Shown here piece after piece: positions 7,544 through 61,837 of a stretch of 64,000 bases of DNA. The notes beneath the pieces were generated by a model. The model did no database searches. It saw only the letters and a list, made by a program, of their open reading frames with translations, and was not told the DNA's origin. Source of the DNA: Natronosalvus caseinilyticus (lineage in GTDB: Archaea > Halobacteriota > Halobacteria > Halobacteriales > Natrialbaceae); the NCBI RefSeq assembly GCF_017357105.1, contig NZ_CP100395.1, positions 62,001 through 126,000 of the forward strand, read 5' to 3'. Position numbers and translations under genes: made by a program. The first letter of the stretch is position 1. Each line of letters opens with the position of its first letter.

Positions 7544-7551
7544 TAATGGAC
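7544..7551. repeat. Target-site duplication TAATGGAC (left)
   Basis: Direct 8-bp repeat with 8369-8376, exactly flanking the inverted-repeat element 7552-8368. Confidence 0.85.
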
Positions 7552-8368
7552 GGCTCTGTTGGAATCCTTGGCCAATGATAGATATATGTGACCGTGCTGA
7601 ATACAGAGCGCGAATCGGTCACTCCTCGTTCAGTGAGAAGCGGCGATACAGATTGGTCGATACAACCTGTGGAGAGTATGGCCGCTCAGTCGTCAAGATA
7701 TGGTTTCTCAACATGTGGGTCGCCCCCAATAAGCGTCGTCAGCCACCGAGTGACGGTATCGAACAACGCAACGAGTGGACCCAGTGCGCGTTCGACGTAC
7801 GAAATCGGGCGGGCGACGCGGAGACTCCAGGACTCTGCATGGCCGAGCCCGTAGGATTTCGGCACGATTTCTCCGAAGACGAGGATTAGAACGCTGACGC
7901 TGAGTGTTGCTATTACGACGGCGAACCCAGGGGGAACGAACCGTGCAACAAGAAGTGTGATGATGCTGGTGATGGCGATGTTAACGAGGTTGTTCCCGAC
8001 CAGCAGTGTGACGAGGAGTCGATGCGGGTTCGCACGGAGTTGTTGGAGCGTACGACTATCTCGTGTACTATTTTCGGGAGTAGTCTCCACCCATTCATCC
8101 GGGAGCGAAAAGATCGCTGACTCACTGCTGGAAAAGAACGCACTCAATGACAATAGAATCACGACTGCGAGAAGGGACGGTACCAAGAACAAGTATGTAC
8201 TCATGTTTGACTCCTACAAAGGGAGGTGTATGAATACCGGTGGTTGATTCGCAAGCGTAGTGAGCGGGTGGTCCAACTTTCTCAACGTGAAACAAACACA
8301 GCAATCGTGCTGTACCCTCTGTATTCAGCACGCGCCTTCTATCCATTTCCAAGGACTTCAACAGAGCC
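7552..8368. mobile_element. Transposase-less passenger cassette (817 bp) carrying a DUF21 gene
   Basis: The left end starts GGCTCTGTTGGAATCCTTGG and the right end, read inward, starts GGCTCTGTTGAAGTCCTTGG. Similarity continues to a shared GTGCTGAATACAGAG block about 42 bp in. The element is bounded by perfect 8-bp direct repeats TAATGGAC, which proves transposition as a unit. The only gene inside is the DUF21 protein 7686-8204; there is no transposase. The left end is nearly identical to the solo end at 24456-24525. The TSD length and CTGTTG-type ends recall IS6-family elements (inference), so it was probably mobilised in trans. It sits in the region upstream of the DacZ gene. Confidence 0.85.
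7686..8204 (-). CDS. DUF21/CNNM domain membrane protein (no CBS domains)
   Basis: A 172-residue protein with three or four membrane segments and the CNNM/DUF21 signatures: SLSAFFSSSESAIFSL near the start, LLVTLLVGNNLVNIA, and VLILVFGEIVPKSYGL. CNNM/CorC proteins handle divalent cations, notably Mg2+ export. This copy stops after the DUF21 domain, without the CBS pair and CorC_HlyC domain present in the homologue at 30042-31424. Transport without the regulatory half is possible but unproven. It is cargo of the mobile cassette 7552-8368, which separates it from its neighbours' evolution. Confidence 0.85.
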   Translation of the reverse strand: MSTYLFLVPSLLAVVILLSLSAFFSSSESAIFSLPDEWVETTPENSTRDSRTLQQLRANPHRLLVTLLVGNNLVNIAITSIITLLVARFVPPGFAVVIATLSVSVLILVFGEIVPKSYGLGHAESWSLRVARPISYVERALGPLVALFDTVTRWLTTLIGGDPHVEKPYLDD

Positions 8369-8408
8369 TAATGGACGGTCTTTACCGACGGCCCATCGAA
8401 TGGAGGGT

Positions 8409-12917: not shown

Positions 12918-13700
12918 TCAAGTGCCGTCGAGTCGCCACGCGAAGATGGATCGCAGGACGACGACGAGGCTGTTGCGGTCGCCAGCGCCCCAGATCGCCG
13001 TCTCCTCGATATCGTCGGCGTCGGCGGCCTCGTCCTCGAGCACACTGACGAGCGCCGTCTCTTCGTCGGTGATCAACAGGCTCCCGGCGGGTGTATCCCG
13101 CCACCCCCAGAGGGTTTCGAACAACTCGATCGACGATACCTCTTCCCGAACGCGATCTTCGACCGCTTCCGAGATGCCCGCCAGATAGATCTCGACCCCG
13201 CGGTCGGCGGCGTCCCGTAGCGCCTCGAGGTGGTCGTCTGTGAGCAACTCATCGACGGTCATGTAGACGATTTGCTCGTCGGCCTCGGCGATGAACTCGT
13301 CGATGCGGGACGAAACTGCTTCCCGACCGGTGACCGTCCAGACGCCGTACTGCTCGCGCTGTGGCTGGGCGGGGCCGATCGTCTCCAAATACTCCGAGAG
13401 TTCGGTAATCGTGGCTTCGCGTTTGGTATTGAGCATACGGACGATGGTCTCCTTCGAGATCACCGTAAATTTCCGCGGCGTCGTGTGCTGGATATCGATG
13501 AATCCCATCTCGTGAAGTCGATCAGCCGCTTCGTACACCCGAGTCCGGGGAACGTTGTTGATGCGGGTGATGTCTTGGGCGGTACCCGTCCCGAGTCGAA
13601 GGAGATTGATGAGCGTCTGGGCTTCGTATTGTGATAAGCCGAGATCCTGTAATCGGTCGAGCGCCTCGGCTTCAGCCTGCTCTTCGTCAAACGATACCAT
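12918..13700 (-). CDS. TrmB-family transcriptional regulator (paralogue)
   Basis: A 260-residue protein with winged helix GLSQYEAQTLINLLRLGTGT...NNVPRTRVYEAADRLHEMGF and an adjoining PLD-like regulatory domain (VWTVTGREAVSSRIDEFI, TVDELLTDDHLEALRDA). The end (AIWGAGDRNSLVVVLRSIFA) is the conserved haloarchaeal TrmB tail. It is intact here; a closely related, truncated and frameshifted copy lies at 43860-44498. Confidence 0.9.
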   Translation of the reverse strand: MVSFDEEQAEAEALDRLQDLGLSQYEAQTLINLLRLGTGTAQDITRINNVPRTRVYEAADRLHEMGFIDIQHTTPRKFTVISKETIVRMLNTKREATITELSEYLETIGPAQPQREQYGVWTVTGREAVSSRIDEFIAEADEQIVYMTVDELLTDDHLEALRDAADRGVEIYLAGISEAVEDRVREEVSSIELFETLWGWRDTPAGSLLITDEETALVSVLEDEAADADDIEETAIWGAGDRNSLVVVLRSIFAWRLDGT

Positions 13701-16225: not shown

Positions 16226-16420
16226 GAGCGTTCGACCTTCACGTTGATCCCTCCTCAGTCCGTGCAACATTCGCGCTATGGATTCAGCACAGCCTTGACG
16301 AACTATCGGAGTGCGGTCAGTAGCGGTGTATGAGATACAGAGGATGGATGCAGCACAGTGGCGCCGTTTATTTCGCGCGCTCAGATCGGAACCAACCGCT
16401 ACACACGAATGCGAACTGAA
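16226..16420. repeat. Two cassette-family ends back to back (R end then L end)
   Basis: 16226-16290 matches the R-type subterminal sequence (GAGCGTTCGACC ... CATTCGCGCTATGGATTCAG) also found at 17692 and 24418. 16334-16420 matches the L-type sequence (ATACAGAGGATGGATGCAGC ... TTTATTTC ... CTACACACGAATGC) found at 24013, 29047 and, inverted, at 48127 and 61690. The terminal GGCTCTGTT repeats are not recognisable here, so the junction has decayed. Confidence 0.6.
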
Positions 16421-17691: not shown

Positions 17692-17755
17692 AGCGTTCGA
17701 CCTTCCGCGTTGATCCTTCCTCAGCCCGTGCAACATTCGCGCTGTGAATTCAGCA
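17692..17755 (+). repeat. Cassette-family R-type subterminal sequence (solo)
   Basis: GAGCGTTCGACCTTCCGCGT through CATTCGCGCTGTGAATTCAG, nearly identical to 24418-24484. The sequence diverges after ATTCAGCA, so the outer inverted repeat is lost. Confidence 0.6.
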
Positions 17756-17793
17756 GACACTGGACGAGCTACCGAATCGTTGTCAAGAGAAGC

Positions 17794-19037
17794 ATGCAAT
17801 ATACAGGTGAGCTAATTGGCGTCCAAGTTATCGAGCTCAGTGACGATCTCGATGCTGCATTGGATAACGTCTCAGCCGGTGATGCATTTATCCTCGAGCC
17901 CGGAATCCACGAAACTCCACAAATGTCGGCGCAACCGTCGATAACTTGCACATCACTGGTTTCGGTCGTGGTGTCACCGTCATCAAGTGGGGAGACGGCG
18001 AATCAACCGACGCCACTCCCCTGATGTCCGTTACCGGGAACGGGTGCACGATTGAGAATCTGACCTTTGACGGGAATCGGGCAAATAACAGTCCCTCGAG
18101 CCCCGGGCAAGTTCACAACCTCAGAATCCTCTCCGTAAACGAGGTGACGGTTAGAAACGTCGAAGCCCGGTCCCATAACGGCGACGGGATATGCCACACT
18201 GGCGACACTGTGAACGGCGCGAGCGGGGACGTGGGCGGCCACAACTGCACCTACGAATCCATCTACTGTTGGGACAACAACCGGCACGGAATGGCGATCT
18301 CAGGGGGGCGGTCGATCACCGTGGCCAACTCACATTTCTTCGCCAATAACGGTACAGATGTGAACGACGGCGTTGACGTTGAGACGGCTTCGGGACGCCA
18401 TGCCGAGGACTTGGCTTTCGACGGCTGTCACTTCTACAACAACGACTGGAACGGGATTAAGATCGACAAAGGGATAGACGAGGTCGTCACCAATAGCACC
18501 TCAAGAGGGAACGGGCAGAACGGCGTGATGATGGATAACGCCGTCGAGTGTAAATTCACATCCGGGATTGTCAAAAACAATTCCAACGACGGGGTTTGAT
18601 TGTCGAATGTCACCGGGTGTGCAGTCTCGGATAGTGTGATCCAGAACAATGGACAGGACGGTGTCGCCCTCTATTCAGGCCCCGACGATGTCGAGATTGC
18701 AGACTGCGATATTCGGTCTAACGGGGGCAACGGGGTCGAGCTTGGTGGAGATGACATCCACATTAACGGTTGCGATGTTGTCGGCAACGATGTGTATGGG
18801 GTCGAAGGGGCTGCGACCCGCCTCCGAGTCACCGATACGCTTTGCCAGGGGATGAGTCGCGGGTTTGCGTTATACAGCGCAACGACCGGCACTATCGGCA
18901 ATTCTGTTGCGGAAGGAAACGGCGGCGTTGGCCTTCGGGTCGACTCTGACGACGTGACGGTGACCGGGTTCTTTAGTCGCAACAACGCGGTGAATTACGA
19001 CCTTTCCAGCGGCGTCACAGAAGCCGGGAATATCTGA
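17794..19037 (+). pseudogene. Right-handed beta-helix (pectate-lyase-like) protein, broken
   Basis: The start (MQYTGELIGVQVIELSDDL) reads to about 17920, where the frame shifts by one. It then continues as NVGATVDNLHITGFGRGV through 18597. A TGA at 18598-18600 interrupts, and the same frame runs on to 19037. Parallel beta-helix rungs with NNxxNG repeats are clear (NGDGICHTGD, NNDWNGIKID, NGQNGVMMD, NGQDGVALY, NGGNGVELGG). Intact relatives are carbohydrate-active or tail-spike-like proteins, often exported. No signal peptide is visible at the start. One frameshift plus one nonsense mutation make it non-functional. Confidence 0.85.
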
Positions 19038-22632: not shown

Positions 22633-22940
22633 TCGTTGATTGGTATTTCGTCGGTCAGCCAGAAAAGGTGTGGTGTCTCTCTTCACCTTCTCTCTGTATC
22701 AGGATTTGATTCTCCGATTACGGACGATCCTTGTGTCCCCTGTATTGATCGATCACTACCCCTCATTGATTGACTCTCACCTCGTGCCCCATTCGCGCCC
22801 TGAGTTCAGCATACACTAAATGAGCTACCCAGTACTTGTCAGAAACGACGTGACCGACTCAGAGGTTAAATTCACCACAACAGGTTCGCGTCTTTCCTCG
22901 GACTGCTCAGTAACCTAGCGTATCCCACTCGTCGGTCAAC

Positions 22941-23849: not shown

Positions 23850-24012
23850 GACTCGAACGATGTCGTGCTGATTGTAAAACCCTTCCATGGAACAATATGG
23901 TGGGGACGACGGACTCCGTCAATCCGCTTTGATCGCTCTCGCCGTGCTAACTACGCGCCCTAAGCTCTGACATACCAAATGAATTGCCCGGCTCCTTTCA
24001 AAAACGACATGA

Positions 24013-24525
24013 GCGACACAGAGGGTGTATGCAGTACGGCCAGCCCATTTATTTCACCGTTTCAGGAAGAGACCAATTGCTACATACGAACGCTTACAGA
24101 CCAGATCTCACGATAGCCGTACACGGTCGATTTCAGCAATATTCGAATCCATAACGTACTCTCTGATACAGTCCTCGCAAACGAATGCCCAATAGATCTT
24201 CCCACTCTCATATGTTACTTTAGTCACTTTCCCATCCTCACTTTGACAGTCGGTACATTCGATAGTTGATTGAGGGGATAGAAACGGATACTCATGTTCT
24301 ACAGAATAGTTCATGGTTTCACTACAGGCTACAGTGACTTATCCTTGGTGTGATTATCTGGGTTACAAGTCAGACTCTCTATTCTTCTGAACTGGCGTTA
24401 TGTCTATTATCTATACTGAGCGTTCGACCTTCCGCGTTAATCCTTCCTCAGCCCGTGCAACATTCGCGCTTTGTATTCAGCACGGTCACAGATACCTATC
24501 ATCGGCCAAGGATTTCAACAGAGCC
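24013..24525. mobile_element. Decayed passenger cassette carrying a zinc-binding protein gene
   Basis: The left part (24013-24093) is L-type subterminal sequence (ACAGAGGGTGTATGCAGTAC, CATTTATTTCACC, GCTACATACGAACGC). The right part (24418-24525) is a full R end finishing ATTTCAACAGAGCC. The right end is nearly identical to the left end of 7552-8368. The left terminal repeat is degenerate (perhaps near 23963) and no target duplication is visible. The only gene inside is 24108-24314. Confidence 0.6.
24108..24314 (-). CDS. Small zinc-binding protein
   Basis: Sixty-eight residues with two Cys pairs, CTDCQ near residue 20 and CEDC near residue 50, joined by a beta-rich segment (KVTKVTYESGKIYWAFV). 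It resembles a rubredoxin/zinc-ribbon fold. It is the cargo of the decayed cassette 24013-24525. Confidence 0.6.
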   Translation of the reverse strand: MNYSVEHEYPFLSPQSTIECTDCQSEDGKVTKVTYESGKIYWAFVCEDCIREYVMDSNIAEIDRVRLS

Positions 24526-28776: not shown

Positions 28777-28830
28777 GGCTCTGTTGAAACCCTTTGAAGG
28801 TGATAGAAATAGCGTGCTGAATACAGTGCT
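28777..28830 (+). repeat. Solo cassette-family end (R type)
   Basis: GGCTCTGTTGAAACCCTTTG followed 40 bp later by GTGCTGAATACAG. It is a terminal inverted repeat of the passenger-cassette family with no visible partner. Confidence 0.65.
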
Positions 28831-32255: not shown

Positions 32256-32411
32256 TCAGTCACGATTGGGTTCGAAATTCTTTAATTCGAACCAGACCTC
32301 GATTAGAAGGGCTACGAATACGACGAAAAGGCTAGCCATCCCAACGCTTTGTCCCCGCCTAATGATCTCCAGAAACAGGAATCCGTGGCTCTGTTGAAAT
32401 CCTTTGAACAT
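32256..32411 (-). CDS. Short membrane-protein ORF fused to a cassette end
   Basis: Starts within the cassette terminal repeat (MFKGFQQSHGFLFLEIIRR) and continues with one membrane helix (VGMASLFVVFVALLIEVWFE) and a polar tail. It may be a gene remnant whose 5' end was replaced by the repeat. Low certainty. Confidence 0.3.
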   Translation of the reverse strand: MFKGFQQSHGFLFLEIIRRGQSVGMASLFVVFVALLIEVWFELKNFEPNRD

Positions 32412-34489: not shown

Positions 34490-34766
34490 AATAACGAAGA
34501 CGACGATGCACTCACGGCGACTGATGTTACGCCGAACACCGGGCTCTCCCAACGTTTGATAGATCAATCTTCTGTATTCAGCAGGCTCTCTCTGACAGAT
34601 TCTCGGCAGATGATTCGGATGATGCAAGATACAAAGCGCGAATGTCGCATGATATCTGGTTCAATTTGTGAAGGTGGTCGCTCAGTATAGGCGTTGTAGT
34701 GAACGAATTTGCATTCTACTATCGTCACCACACCGGAACGTCTCGCGAAAACCCTTGGACAGTCGT
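34490..34766. other. Intergenic with cassette-end fragments
   Basis: TCTGTATTCAGCA at 34571-34583 abuts GGCTCT at 34584, followed 41 bp later by GATACAAAGCGCGAATG (34628-34644), which is the R-type left end. It looks like one decayed end inserted into another. No gene is seen. Confidence 0.5.
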
Positions 34767-43859: not shown

Positions 43860-44498
43860 TCAGGCTGCTTGCTCTTCGTCGAGTCGCCACGAAAAGATTG
43901 CTCGGAGGACGACGACGAGGCTATTTCGATCGCCTGCGCCCCAGATTGCCGTTTCTTTGATCTCATCACCGCCGTCGGAACCGTTCATAAGCGCACTCAC
44001 GAGTGCCGTCTCTTCATCAGTGATCAACAGGTTCCCGGCCGATGTATCTTGCCACTCCCACAAGGTTTCGAACAGCTCGGCTGACGGAACCATTTCCTGA
44101 ATCTGATCTTGGACCTCGTCTGAAATTCCCGCGAGATAGATGTCTACCCCCCCCGGTCATTGGCGGCCTGAAGCTGATCGAGATGGTCGTCGGTGAGTAG
44201 TTCATCGATGGTCATGTAGACGATTTGCTCGTCTGCCTCGGCGATGAACTCGTCGACACGAGATGCGACCGCTTCCCGTCCGGTCACCGTCCAGACGCCG
44301 AACTGTTCGCGTTGTGGTTGGGCCGGCCCGATCCCCTCCAGACACTCCGCAAGTTCGGTAATCGTATTTTCGCGTCTCATCTTGAGCATACGGATGATCG
44401 TCTCCTCGGATATCACGGTGAATTTTCGCGGCGTCGTGTGCTGGATGTCGATGGAGCCCAGCTCGTGGAGCCGATCAGCCGCTTCGTGTCGAGTGTTT
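43860..44498 (-). pseudogene. TrmB-family regulator, 5'-truncated and frameshifted
   Basis: Closely related to 12918-13700. The 5' end is missing: sequence similarity begins at EAADRLHELGSIDIQHTTPR. It runs through VWTVTGREAVASRVDEFI to ANDRGG, where an eight-G run (minus strand, near 44150) throws the frame. The rest (VPSAELFETLWEWQDTSAGN, AIWGAGDRNSLVVVLRAIFS) follows in another frame. The homopolymer means a sequencing error could explain the frameshift but not the missing N-terminus, which is replaced by the DUF421 gene end. Confidence 0.8.
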
Positions 44499-47910: not shown

Positions 47911-48487
47911 CCACCAAGAGAACCGTTCTATCGATTCCCTGTTTGAGCCGAGAGAGCAGAGGACTGGTATGAGAACCGTTGTATGACATCCGATACGCCT
48001 ATTAGAATCGAGTTCACTGGAGCCACCCTTTCTCAACGTAGTAGACTACCACCTCAGCACGTTGGGATTCGATGAGTGGTCCGGTCGGTAGCTGAATCGC
48101 TGAGTACATCAGTCGGTAAGTATGCATCCGTATGTACCGGTTGGTTCTACCCGGTGTGATTGAAATAAACGAGGTCAATGTACTGCATCCATACTCTGCA
48201 GTCAGCACACCTGATAAGAATCAATCATTGATAAAAGATTTCAACGGACCGTTTATTATAATTTGGCCAGTAATTAGGAGACAATCAGCGATAACCTGAA
48301 TATCAGGATGAATGATTAACAGAGGGAAAGAACTATAGAAATCCTATAAATGGCCTTTTTGACCAAGGATATAGAGGAAAAGAATACAATATTCGGAAGG
48401 CCTTATAGGTCTCCTACATAGAGGATACTGCTTGAGAAGTACGTAGGAACCTGTTTTCTTCCCTGCTGACTGATTTAAATAGGCCTC
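47911..48487. other. AT-rich gene-free stretch with an L-type cassette end (48127-48251)
   Basis: TGCATCCATACTCTGCAGTC with upstream GTGATTGAAATAAACG and terminal AGATTTCAACGGACC matches the inverted L end at 61690-61797. Its partner was not found. 48240-48480 is AT-rich without a gene. Confidence 0.5.
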
Positions 48488-59096: not shown

Positions 59097-59104
59097 GAAA
59101 TCCG
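59097..59104. repeat. Target-site duplication GAAATCCG (left)
   Basis: Repeated exactly at 61798-61805, flanking the outer cassette 59105-61797. Confidence 0.8.
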
Positions 59105-59271
59105 GGCTCTGTTAAAATCATTGGAAACGGACACAAGTGGTTTGCTGAATACACAGCGCGAATGTGGCATTGCCCGAGGAGCGATTACACAGAAGACCAA
59201 ACACTCAGTACAGGAACTGCACATAGTGCTTGTCCAGAAAACATTTATCAATGTGATTATGATTGGATGAT

Positions 59272-59550
59272 ATGGATACACCTCAGTTGTCCCGCCGGCA
59301 TATCATCGGAACTGTGGCTCTTTCAGCTCTTGCGGGCTGTACAGCCTCCAGCTCCGAATCCGAAATCCAAATCGGGAACATTATGATCGGTAACTGGCGA
59401 GATGATCCGGTCACTATTACGCTCCGTCTTGATCGAGAGGGAATTACAGTCTTTGAAGAGGCTATCGAGATCGATGGTGATGGGGAAAACCTCATCGAGC
59501 AGTCATGGGATGCTGACCCCGGTGAGTATACTATTATGGGCCTCGTTTAG
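59272..59550 (+). pseudogene. Tat lipoprotein gene, 5' part, split by a transposon
   Basis: MDTPQLSRRHIIGTVALSAL then lipobox ALAGC, then IGNWRDDPVTITLRLDREG and EQSWDADPGEYTIM, where the element at 59539 begins; the last codons (GLV) come from the transposon end. Removing 59539-61490 and one CTATTATG copy joins this frame directly to YSTETEGRIYNLSLPEDVES at 61499 and on to TGA at 61654. The intact product would be about 144 residues. Confidence 0.85.
59531..59538. repeat. Target-site duplication CTATTATG (left)
   Basis: Identical to 61491-61498; flanks the inner element 59539-61490. Confidence 0.9.
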
Positions 59551-59740
59551 ACGTAGATATACAGTAGAACGAGGCTGCTCCCCTCACTCTTTAGATCAAA
59601 TTCGGAATAAAACACTCGGTCAGTTGGGCGTGTAAATCTATCGCTGAGATCGTGGACACTTTCGATAGGTGGCTCAGAACGACAATAGCCACAGGATTAG
59701 GGACGCACCATTATGAAGACGGATTACGTCTTGTAAAAAC

Positions 59741-60472
59741 ATGGGTATAACTAGCCATGGGTCGGATATGCTTGAAGAGAATGGCGTGGTTGGACTGTTT
59801 GCAGCATATCAACTTGAACGGCCTCAAACAGCCGACGATGATGTCGAGATCTCCACTGAAGAAGTTTGCAACATCCTTGAAGATAGCAATAGGCCAGAAG
59901 AAGTGCTCGTTGATACGTATCTAATGAGTGAGCTTACCCCCGGAGTGGACTACCTTGTCCGTATCCATGCGCACGACTTGACCACTGCTCAGGAAGTCCT
60001 CCGAGAGTTTCAGGCCACATCGTTTGGACGGTACTCGAAACTCATCGATGTGCTTACTGGGATTATCCGGGATGCCGTCTACCTCCCGCAAACACCTGAT
60101 CTCGATGCAATCGAAAAGGCAGCGACCTTCGAAGGAACGGAACCGCCGGACTACGCGATCATCATCCCTGTGGATAAAAACGCCGCATGGTGGAATCTTC
60201 CCGAATCTGACCGCATTGAAAAAATGCGAGATCACATCGAAGTGGCGCTCCCCTACCTCGATCGTATCCGCCGTCAGCTCTACCATTCCAGCGGTCTCAC
60301 CGATTACGAGTACATTACCTATTTCGAGACGAATGACCTCGGCGCGTTTATCGATCTCTACCGAGACTTGGAATCAATCCCCGAATACCACTACGTTACC
60401 GACGGCGATCCTACGTTGATCGGTCGTATCGAATCGTCTGAAACTATTGTCACCAAGCTTCTCCAAACTTAA
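59741..60472 (+). CDS. Chlorite dismutase/HemQ-family heme protein, transposon cargo
   Basis: 243 residues; Met at 59768 is an alternative start. Family landmarks: VVGLFAAYQLERPQ, YLMSELTPGVDYLVRIHAHD, a YPxxK-like IIIPVDKNAAWWNLPESDRI, then MRDHIEVALPYLDRIRRQLY and LTDYEYITYFETNDLGAFID, ending HYVTDGDPTLIGRI. The His in MRDHIE sits where the proximal heme ligand is expected, though alignment is needed. Haloarchaeal relatives act in heme handling; true chlorite degradation is not implied. No ABM domain is fused. Converges on the transposase gene with 51 bp between stops. Confidence 0.85.
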   Translation: MGITSHGSDMLEENGVVGLFAAYQLERPQTADDDVEISTEEVCNILEDSNRPEEVLVDTYLMSELTPGVDYLVRIHAHDLTTAQEVLREFQATSFGRYSKLIDVLTGIIRDAVYLPQTPDLDAIEKAATFEGTEPPDYAIIIPVDKNAAWWNLPESDRIEKMRDHIEVALPYLDRIRRQLYHSSGLTDYEYITYFETNDLGAFIDLYRDLESIPEYHYVTDGDPTLIGRIESSETIVTKLLQT

Positions 60473-60523
60473 AATATTTTATATCTTCACACACACTTTG
60501 ACGAATAGTAGGTAGATTGGCGG

Positions 60524-61417
60524 CTAGTGTAGTATGTTCTTCCCCAGTATTGACCAATATGAACGGATCACACGCGAGAAGCGTGTCTTGAAGCAGATAG
60601 CAATCTCGATGTTTCGGACAGCGGATTTTAACACAATTTCGCGGAACTGACCGAACCACGTTCGTGCCCGGAGCGTATCGCCATAACGCTGTTTGAGAGC
60701 GAAAAAGATCGCCTCGACCGCAGACCGCCGATGATAGGCATTATCATCTTGGCGAACGTTATGAGCTACATCTAATGGCGTAAATTCACGATGCTTGATC
60801 ACAGGGCGAACATCCGCCTCCCGTAGGCGGTGACGAAGGGCGTCCCAGTCGTAGCCTTTGTCGGCAGTGACCGTCTGAAGCTGGTCGAGATTCCGTGTGA
60901 GTACTTGGCATCCGACTTGCGTGTCGTGCGGTTGCTGCATCGAGCAGTGGACATCCAACACGGCACCGGTCTCACAATCGACTAACGCAGTCGTCTTCAC
61001 CGATCTGAAGGTGTAGTCCGTCTGGTTCGCGTAGTGGCGGCTGGCCGAGTGTCGGTCGAGGCCGGTTGCGTCGATAGCCTGTACCTCACCGGTGTCGTGA
61101 AGATCAGCGGAGAGTCGGAGGAGCGTTCGCCAGACAGCCATCTTAAGTTCCCGCTTCCGAACGCACACGGTCGTGAAGTCCGGAAGTTCGCTGATTTTGA
61201 GGCCCATCTTCTCGACGATTCCGTGCATCTCGTGAAGAATATCGAGTAGTCGTCGGTACGGAAGGTCGAGGTATTCACGGAGGCCATGGAGGACGATAAC
61301 CACCCAGCCAGCGTATCCGCCGTCACCCTTCTTGACTGCCGTATCAGGAACGCCCGAAACAGCGCGTTTCGCCAACGTAACAAGACGATCAGTGAAACGT
61401 GAGAGATGGGAGGACAC
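60524..61417 (-). CDS. IS5-family transposase (paralogue with altered C-terminus)
   Basis: 297 residues. DDE residues: TGEVQAIDATGLDRHSASRH, QTVTADKGYDWDALRHRLRE, RSAVEAIFFALKQRYGDTLR. It matches 35787-36626 up to KSAVRNIEIAI, then continues for about 20 extra residues (CFKTRFSRVIRSYWSILGK) not present in the sister, where cargo DNA joins. The catalytic domain looks intact, so the element may be active. Confidence 0.9.
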   Translation of the reverse strand: MSSHLSRFTDRLVTLAKRAVSGVPDTAVKKGDGGYAGWVVIVLHGLREYLDLPYRRLLDILHEMHGIVEKMGLKISELPDFTTVCVRKRELKMAVWRTLLRLSADLHDTGEVQAIDATGLDRHSASRHYANQTDYTFRSVKTTALVDCETGAVLDVHCSMQQPHDTQVGCQVLTRNLDQLQTVTADKGYDWDALRHRLREADVRPVIKHREFTPLDVAHNVRQDDNAYHRRSAVEAIFFALKQRYGDTLRARTWFGQFREIVLKSAVRNIEIAICFKTRFSRVIRSYWSILGKNILH

Positions 61418-61490
61418 ACTGCTTGTTTCTGCCTTTGACGTGGATTAGTTTACCGGAATTAGTGCCTCTTTCCGGCGTCTAAACAAGGCC

Positions 61491-61656
61491 CTATTATGTA
61501 TTCGACGGAGACGGAAGGACGAATCTACAATTTGTCTCTTCCAGAAGATGTGGAAAGTGCAAATGGAGACTGTATCGACATTCAGATTCACTGCCGAGCA
61601 GACCTGACTGATATCGTTTTCAGAGACGATAGCCCACCGTGGGGCAAATGTTGAAG
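61491..61656 (+). pseudogene. Tat lipoprotein gene, 3' part
   Basis: Starts with the duplicated CTATTATG and continues in frame as YSTETEGRIYNLSLPEDVES, CIDIQIHCRADLTDIVFRDD and SPPWGKC to TGA. It has no start signals of its own (an ATG inside the TSD could initiate a short product). It is the missing second half of 59272-59538. Confidence 0.85.
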
Positions 61657-61837
61657 TGATCGTTCAATAAGCAGCTGTATGCGCCGATTGGTTTCGGACT
61701 TAAAGTGTGAAATAAACGTGGGCGCCGTGCTGCACTCATCCTCTGTATACAGCACGACCAGCGAAACATATCACTGCTTTAGGATTTCAACGAGGCTGAA
61801 ATCCGTTATGTCAAAATAAATATGTTACTAAATAGCC

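Follow-up and report, generated by a model that had tools for sequence, protein, structure and literature searches.

A stretch of 64,000 nucleotides from Natronosalvus caseinilyticus (contig NZ_CP100395.1, positions 62,001 to 126,000; hereafter the window), which forms part of the 230-kb replicon C2 in a haloarchaeal genome of 4.2 Mb, contains at positions 59105–61797 a transposon-like frame with inverted ends around a lipoprotein gene cassette. This element is the one-cassette form of a wider family of frames and cassette arrays, which we consider probable to constitute a two-level mobile gene-cassette system of haloarchaea. At the first level, which is well supported, a transposase-less frame marked by terminal inverted repeats (TIRs) and an 8-bp target duplication would jump as a unit, most likely by way of the transposase of IS5-family insertion sequences (ISs) with near-identical ends. 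Such a frame would hold either one cassette or a row of several. At the second level, which is supported by comparison, the cassettes, usually of one gene and set apart by compound sites of ~190 bp, would be swapped, gained and lost through recombination at the arms and junctions of these sites, the responsible enzyme probably being a tyrosine-type recombinase. We propose with only moderate confidence that this is a new kind of system, because the recombination step rests on sequence comparison and because the literature was consulted in its open-access part. In the open-access PMC literature (subscription papers were outside the scope) we found no description of such a system.

Ends and Cargo of Element 59105–61797

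A preliminary description of this DNA had assigned the left end to the R type and the right end to the L type, with an 8-bp duplication outside both, and all of these features are present. The left end reads GGCTCTGTTAAAATCATTGG, and the right end, read inward from position 61797, is AGCCTCGTTGAAATCC. The duplication GAAATCCG lies directly outside the two ends (59097–59104 and 61798–61805), and its copies match perfectly and without shift (8/8), which none of 20,000 random position pairs did by chance. The R-type TIR (59105–59124, plus strand) falls within a match to our model of R-type frame ends (R2, 59105–59170). It is followed on the same strand by the R arm TGCTGAATACACAGCGCGAATGTGGCATTG (59143–59172), which a short spacer places 38 bases from the frame end, and by the gene-proximal junction motif CTCAGTACAG (59204–59213), which ends the conserved R part and was positioned from 165 sites. 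The opposite side, on the minus strand, consists of the L-type TIR (61778–61797), the L arm (61725–61754; TGCTGTATACAGAGGATGAGTGCAGCACGG read inward) behind a long spacer of 43 bases, and the gene-proximal junction of the L part (61662–61683; GTTCAATAAGCAGCTGTATGCG on the plus strand), assigned from the junction consensus.

The cargo is a Tat-lipoprotein gene. Its 5' part (59263–59538, plus strand; RRHIIG...LAGC lipobox) starts with TTG at 59263 or ATG at 59272 and runs up to a nested insertion, behind which an open frame (61496–61654, plus strand) continues the interrupted gene. The insertion is an IS5-type transposon of 1,952 bp (59539–61490) with the TIR GGCCTYGTTTAGACG, bordered by an 8-bp duplication of its own (CTATTATG, 59531–59538 and 61491–61498). 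After removal of this transposon and one copy of its duplication, the cassette measures 733 bp, the size given in the preliminary description. The same description had counted exactly one gene; the gene is indeed single, but it is interrupted, and the cassette was disabled by the later IS insertion. The element would have inserted at GAAATCCG carrying an intact lipoprotein cassette and would have been inactivated afterward. In three further genomes (L264, L250 and L278), relatives of this lipoprotein reside in arrays; the genome of the element itself has another at locus L066.

Besides its transposase gene (60527–61417, minus strand; DDE_Tnp_1, E 4.4e-20; NCBIfam IS5_2, E 1.7e-65, above cut-off), the nested transposon carries a passenger gene for a chlorite dismutase/HemQ-like protein (59741–60469, plus strand; Pfam PF06778, E 4.4e-29). 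When transposon and passenger were sought together among plasmids, the best matches spanned the transposase half only.

A Family of Frames

The second insertion that the preliminary description had placed at 7552–8368, with shared ends and different cargo, is a full sister element. It has an R end on the left, an L end on the right and the duplication TAATGGAC (7544–7551 and 8369–8376), and it carries a gene for a CNNM N-terminal domain (7689–8204, minus strand). With a search for the terminal repeat that allowed up to three mismatches, we obtained 15 matches in the genome, compared to none with the reversed control, and ten paired elements were identified. Their cargo is unrelated from element to element, comprising a CNNM-domain protein (twice), Tat lipoproteins, unknowns and, named by eye, a response-regulator-like and a RibD/DHFR-like protein. 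The sole transposase recognized among these ten elements is that of the IS nested in 59105–61797.

Each frame end is layered. The terminal repeat of 20 bp comes outermost, next a spacer that contains a TGATAGG box, and innermost the arm, which reads TGCTGAATACAGAGCGCGAATGTTGCAC on the R side and TGCTGAATACAGAGGATGAGTGCAGCAC on the L side. Over all loci examined we found 24 non-redundant R/L-paired elements, 17 of which are bordered by a duplication matching at 7/8 or 8/8 positions, which bears out the earlier view of a cassette system as opposed to a chance repeat. Another count was made on 22 pairs, formed from those of 170 R2 matches that were judged terminal-repeat ends (first model position ≤7). 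An unshifted 7/8 or 8/8 duplication borders 12 of these pairs, while random pairs reached 7/8 in 9 of 20,000 cases and 8/8 in none.

The spacer places the arm about 38 or 43 bases from the frame end, and all 24 elements pair one short with one long spacer; equal spacers do not occur among them. The combination of long R and short L is found in 20 elements and the reverse in four, including 59105–61797 (Fisher p = 9e-5, uncorrected for relatedness; L049 and L155 represent the same insertion, seen in two species). The 22-pair list, which was drawn up earlier, includes a 43/43 case, L252, with two R-type ends and probably not a real pair, as well as L051, one end of which is unscorable.

The preliminary description had made its reading depend on paired ends around single genes in other genomes and on homology between the two terminal repeats. 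R-type frame ends occur in 109 of 121 genomes of the family (R2 model, E ≤ 1e-6), and the two terminal repeats, right and left, are homologous.

Array Sites and Cassette Arrays

The arms of the frames recur in a second setting. Array sites consist of R and L arms placed back to back around a core of ~40 bp, they lie between single genes, and in our site alignments they lack the terminal repeat. The compound site measures ~190 bp. Its two arms make up an imperfect palindrome, and a junction motif adjoins each gene. At the outer limits of the conserved site, GTACTG-like motifs flank the gene on both sides, and the L-side junction is a palindrome, GTTCAGTA-8-AACTGAAC, with the inverted 8-8-8 layout seen with recombinases. 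At one empty junction (L252:11667), the L part is joined straight to the R part with no gene between them. We named a structure for the arms by hand and followed it through 150 sites: 10 of 12 inner pairs vary on both sides with pairing kept, and the covariation score of 0.178 exceeds that of shuffled alignments (0.114; 0 of 500 reach the observed value, although related sequences can inflate this comparison) and that of slid versions (at most 0.075).

A model built from ten array sites on sequence only (R1) finds 35 matches in the window's genome at E below 2e-6. At E ≤ 1e-5 the site is present in 97 of 121 family genomes, and at E ≤ 1e-6 in 216 of 391 sampled genomes of the class, representing 63 of 86 genera. 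In a sample of the phylum, 43 of 392 genomes contain it, and all 43 belong to the same order.

A chromosomal array (C1:1126623–1140941) illustrates the arrangement, with compound sites repeating between single genes that encode a Bat/HTH regulator, a response regulator, SnoaL, a FilR1-like regulator, EamA, a Na/Ca exchanger and methyltransferases. The window holds a plasmid counterpart (16260–24525, plus strand, R1 and R2 matches) with array-type sites at 16260–16357, 17726–17806, 22782–22878 and 23941–24038 (the last with an R1 E value of 1.7e-18), closed by an R-type terminal-repeat end at 24453–24525 (R2 match). The stretch 24013–24525, which had been proposed as another place with frame ends, is the last cassette of this array: its right side does have a terminal-repeat end, and its left side has an array-type site instead.

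For the analysis of spacing, orientation and exchange, we used R1 matches down to an E value of ~3e-10 and left weaker ones out. Among the 149 units bounded in this way, neighboring sites run head to tail in 97 of 100 site pairs at a median spacing of 1.1 kb, while the orientation of the genes is mixed (55 vs 44 in 99 intervals, with the open reading frame (ORF) picked by length and acidity). Cargo is diverse, as a Pfam search identified 92 families among 80 proteins, namely 78 of the 99 array ORFs (4 of fewer than 70 amino acids and 17 seemingly non-coding or IS genes were dropped) plus two cargo proteins of the window. A simple regular expression for the Tat/lipobox pattern matches 16 of the 99 cassette ORFs, compared to 3 of 179 ORFs in an acidic background set.

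Arrays and frames are not separate entities, as several frames hold internal array sites and hence two or more cassettes. The two-cassette frame L049 (2.9 kb) is bordered by a perfect duplication. In three frames that exceed 3.5 kb, the duplication matches at 7/8 positions; it is unshifted in L281 (5.9 kb, four internal sites) and L274 (3.7 kb) and has one end shifted by one base in L266. The preliminary description understated the finding in this respect, as it missed the arms in array sites, the ends and duplication around whole arrays, and the broken lipoprotein gene.

These arrays bear on a rival account, which we regard as unlikely though worth serious attention. According to this account, the elements are ordinary mobile insertion cassettes, that is, passengers between IS5-type ends; arrays arise by stacking or nesting of insertions, and swaps by homologous recombination or gene conversion between ends. 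The solo elements agree with it, being transposase-less single-gene units with IS-like ends and a duplication of 8 bp, and the 15–30 bases of identity within arms could suit short-homology recombination. On the other hand, stacking should leave terminal repeats and duplications between cassettes, whereas array sites have no terminal repeat and keep their arms ~40 bp apart around a conserved core. The head-to-tail order of nearly all neighboring sites and the recurrence of breaks at arms or junctions, described in the following section, also speak against stacking.

Evidence for Movement of Cassettes

One indication that cassettes move within a frame comes from two genomes, G000 and G078, which have one frame insertion in common. 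The flanks and TIRs are the same and the duplication is near-identical, yet the frame contains 2.9 kb of cargo in G000 and a different cargo of 0.63 kb in G078. Identity between the two breaks within the R arm and within the L arm. It likewise breaks at the R arm in the pair L051/L267; in L059/L258 the R arm also bears a later insertion, which makes this case less clear. The CNNM cassette is found in three different frames, at 7552–8368 in the window, in L052 (98% identity to the window copy) and in L340, an element on a plasmid of Natronosalvus rutilus (93.5%). In L340 the spacers are arranged the other way round, and the duplication matches at 7/8 positions. The outer ends of the three copies differ, and the breaks again fall within the arms. 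Both the shared insertion and the CNNM cassettes suggest exchange at the arms.

In total, nine cassette families occur in at least two contexts (20 of the 137 units without IS). In three gene cassettes, identity between genomes is 93–98.5% although the sites on either side are different, and here the break coincides with the GTACTG-like junction that borders the conserved site, which points to exchange at the junctions. A dedicated, site-specific enzyme may perform these exchanges, and cassettes would then probably move by a second, site-directed reaction.

The same comparisons make it very improbable that the sites are static intergenic signals (terminators, promoters or chromatin elements) multiplied as repeats between genes that do not themselves travel as cassettes. 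Such signals would explain why the sites are always intergenic and why the arms are palindromic. They would not explain why the same gene stands between different sites in different species, why whole arrays bear target duplications, or why one frame insertion contains different genes in two species.

Candidate Enzymes

Frames probably jump using an IS5-family transposase. Copies of this family in the genomes analyzed (DDE_Tnp_1; L314, L324 and L329 among others) have the TIR GGCTCTGTTGAATC and 8-bp duplications. This repeat (e.g., that of L329) is close to the frame TIR GGCTCTGTTGAAATCC, with approximately the first 12 bases in common, and related IS5-type transposases are encoded in 98 of 121 genomes. 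IS6 elements, which came into question as frame movers by their 8-bp duplication and GG-CTGTT-AAA ends, were set aside, as the IS6-family copies found here have GGCACTGTCTAGTT-type ends, unlike the frame TIR.

Cassette sites are also hot spots of IS insertion. IS5-type copies have inserted into site arms at 7 of 30 transposase loci (L227, L228, L229, L234, L235, L240 and L245), where they duplicated part of the arm as their target (CGCGCCCTG and similar).

Regarding the exchange of cassettes, three tyrosine recombinase genes in the window's genome lie beside the end of an array or frame, which is 107, 41 and 12 bp away from their 3' ends (L054:3471–4517, L055:4047–5045 and L049:1664–2704, respectively). 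As a general enzyme for cassette exchange, an array-adjacent recombinase of this type is unsupported outside the genus and is retained as a candidate only. The IS5-type transposase could instead exchange cassettes itself, without a tyrosine recombinase, by treating arms and sub-terminal boxes as substitutes for its normal ends. The wide occurrence of these transposases would fit, while recombinases do not track arrays, and so would the recurrent IS5-type insertions inside site arms. This mechanism would be expected to leave 8-bp duplications at array sites, however, and the site alignments contain none; the recombinase-like layout of the L-side junction is a further point against it. We judge exchange by the transposase improbable.

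Several observations weigh against the proposed two-level system. No autonomous element with exactly the TIR of the frames was found, and 8 of the 22 tested pairs have a duplication matching at only 4/8 to 6/8 positions even with shifts allowed. RNAalifold predicted no consensus fold from a 10-site alignment, and the outer helix of the arms is paired at 64% only. The position of the break varies between arm and junction from event to event, whereas a single crossover point predicts otherwise. Only 4 of 30 recombinase loci have any site match within ~1.5 kb, two of them weak, and tblastn over the array loci analyzed, including a superarray of 100 kb, returned only the three recombinases named above and one orthologue.

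Comparison with Known Systems

Haloarchaea exchange genes intensively, and cassette-type gene traffic has so far been linked to bacterial-type integrons. The arrays resemble integrons in having rows of varied one-gene cassettes with palindromic sites between them (as judged by head-to-tail order and arm covariation) and cassettes in differing contexts. One chromosomal array has a tyrosine recombinase gene 107 bp upstream of its first site. We nevertheless consider it hardly credible that these are true integrons, complete with an integrase gene, attI and attC of the canonical type. Of 165 sites, 2 have RYYYAAC/GTTRRRY boxes spaced as in attC, compared to a mean of 1.6 after shuffling. The adjacent recombinases weakly match XerC/XerD models, and their sole integron-integrase match (TIGR02249) scores 17.6 bits against a cut-off of 265. 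Unlike integron cassettes, the genes do not point mostly in one direction, and most arrays have no recombinase nearby. In addition, a whole haloarchaeal array is bounded by transposon ends and a duplication, and there are two kinds of breakpoint per cassette. The system as a whole acts like an integron riding in a transposon, yet does not qualify as an integron on these features. Integrons with bacterial-type IntI and attC have been described in archaeal metagenome-assembled genomes of nine phyla (Ghaly et al. 2022, PMC9668308); a text search of that article for the term "Halobacteria" gave no hit.

Mobile insertion cassettes (PMC3129680) and haloarchaeal miniature inverted-repeat transposable elements (PMC3119063) are described as having IS-like inverted repeats, a target duplication, a passenger gene and no transposase, and as being moved in trans. 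The solo elements are built in this way, and this includes 59105–61797, because its transposase belongs to the later nested IS. The solo form agrees with the pattern of a mobile insertion cassette, from which the arrays depart. Frames differ from such cassettes by holding several units with shared internal compound sites (four in L281, within a duplication), by the exchange of cassettes inside one fixed insertion, and by the rule of one short and one long spacer. Another comparison is with haloarchaeal IS5-family insertion sequences, for which the names ISHtu1 and ISNma1 appear in record annotation. Copies of this family in the related genomes have a TIR of the GGCTCTGTTGAATC type and an 8-bp duplication, whereas the frames have no transposase of their own and do have arms and sites.

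The spacer rule invites an analogy. In recombinase-mediated cassette exchange the reaction takes place between two unlike sites, and the 12/23 rule of V(D)J recombination admits only pairs of unlike spacers. The 38- and 43-base spacers of frames resemble these cases by analogy only, and we know of no related enzyme.

We think it quite possible, short of likely, that haloarchaea own an independently evolved counterpart of the integron, in which an unknown recombinase would move genes as cassettes by acting on compound sites, while entire rows of cassettes would travel as transposons with borrowed IS5 transposases and obey the 38/43-base spacer-pair rule. If true, an array system present across the class (216 of 391 genomes, 63 of 86 genera) would represent a second solution to gene shuffling and could account for some of the lipoproteins and regulators encoded on haloarchaeal plasmids. 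The proposal makes testable predictions as to cassette circles, empty junctions, the spacer rule and the missing recombinase.

Further Features of the Window and Related Loci

The stretch 48127–48251 had also been listed as bearing frame ends. One degenerate L-type end is present there (48232–48251), without a partner and reported by neither the R1 nor the R2 model. Other partnerless or degenerate ends lie at 28777–28829 and 32387–32406, and a further array-type site is located at 34557–34651 (minus strand; R1, E 1.1e-16). In viral contigs, an exact-match search for one L-arm pattern, which is a narrow test, found none.

The superarray L247–L251 (G060:C1:780000–879999) contains dozens of sites over ~100 kb. 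Orientation changes from one block to the next, and tblastn found there no recombinase of the type sought. Locus L064:379–2508 (G000:C1:970378–972507) matches itself at several offsets and resembles a tandem repeat, with copies ~81–85% identical. Finally, a stretch of ~610 bp is present in the window in two copies (12926–13534 and 43877–44487) with 80% identity.

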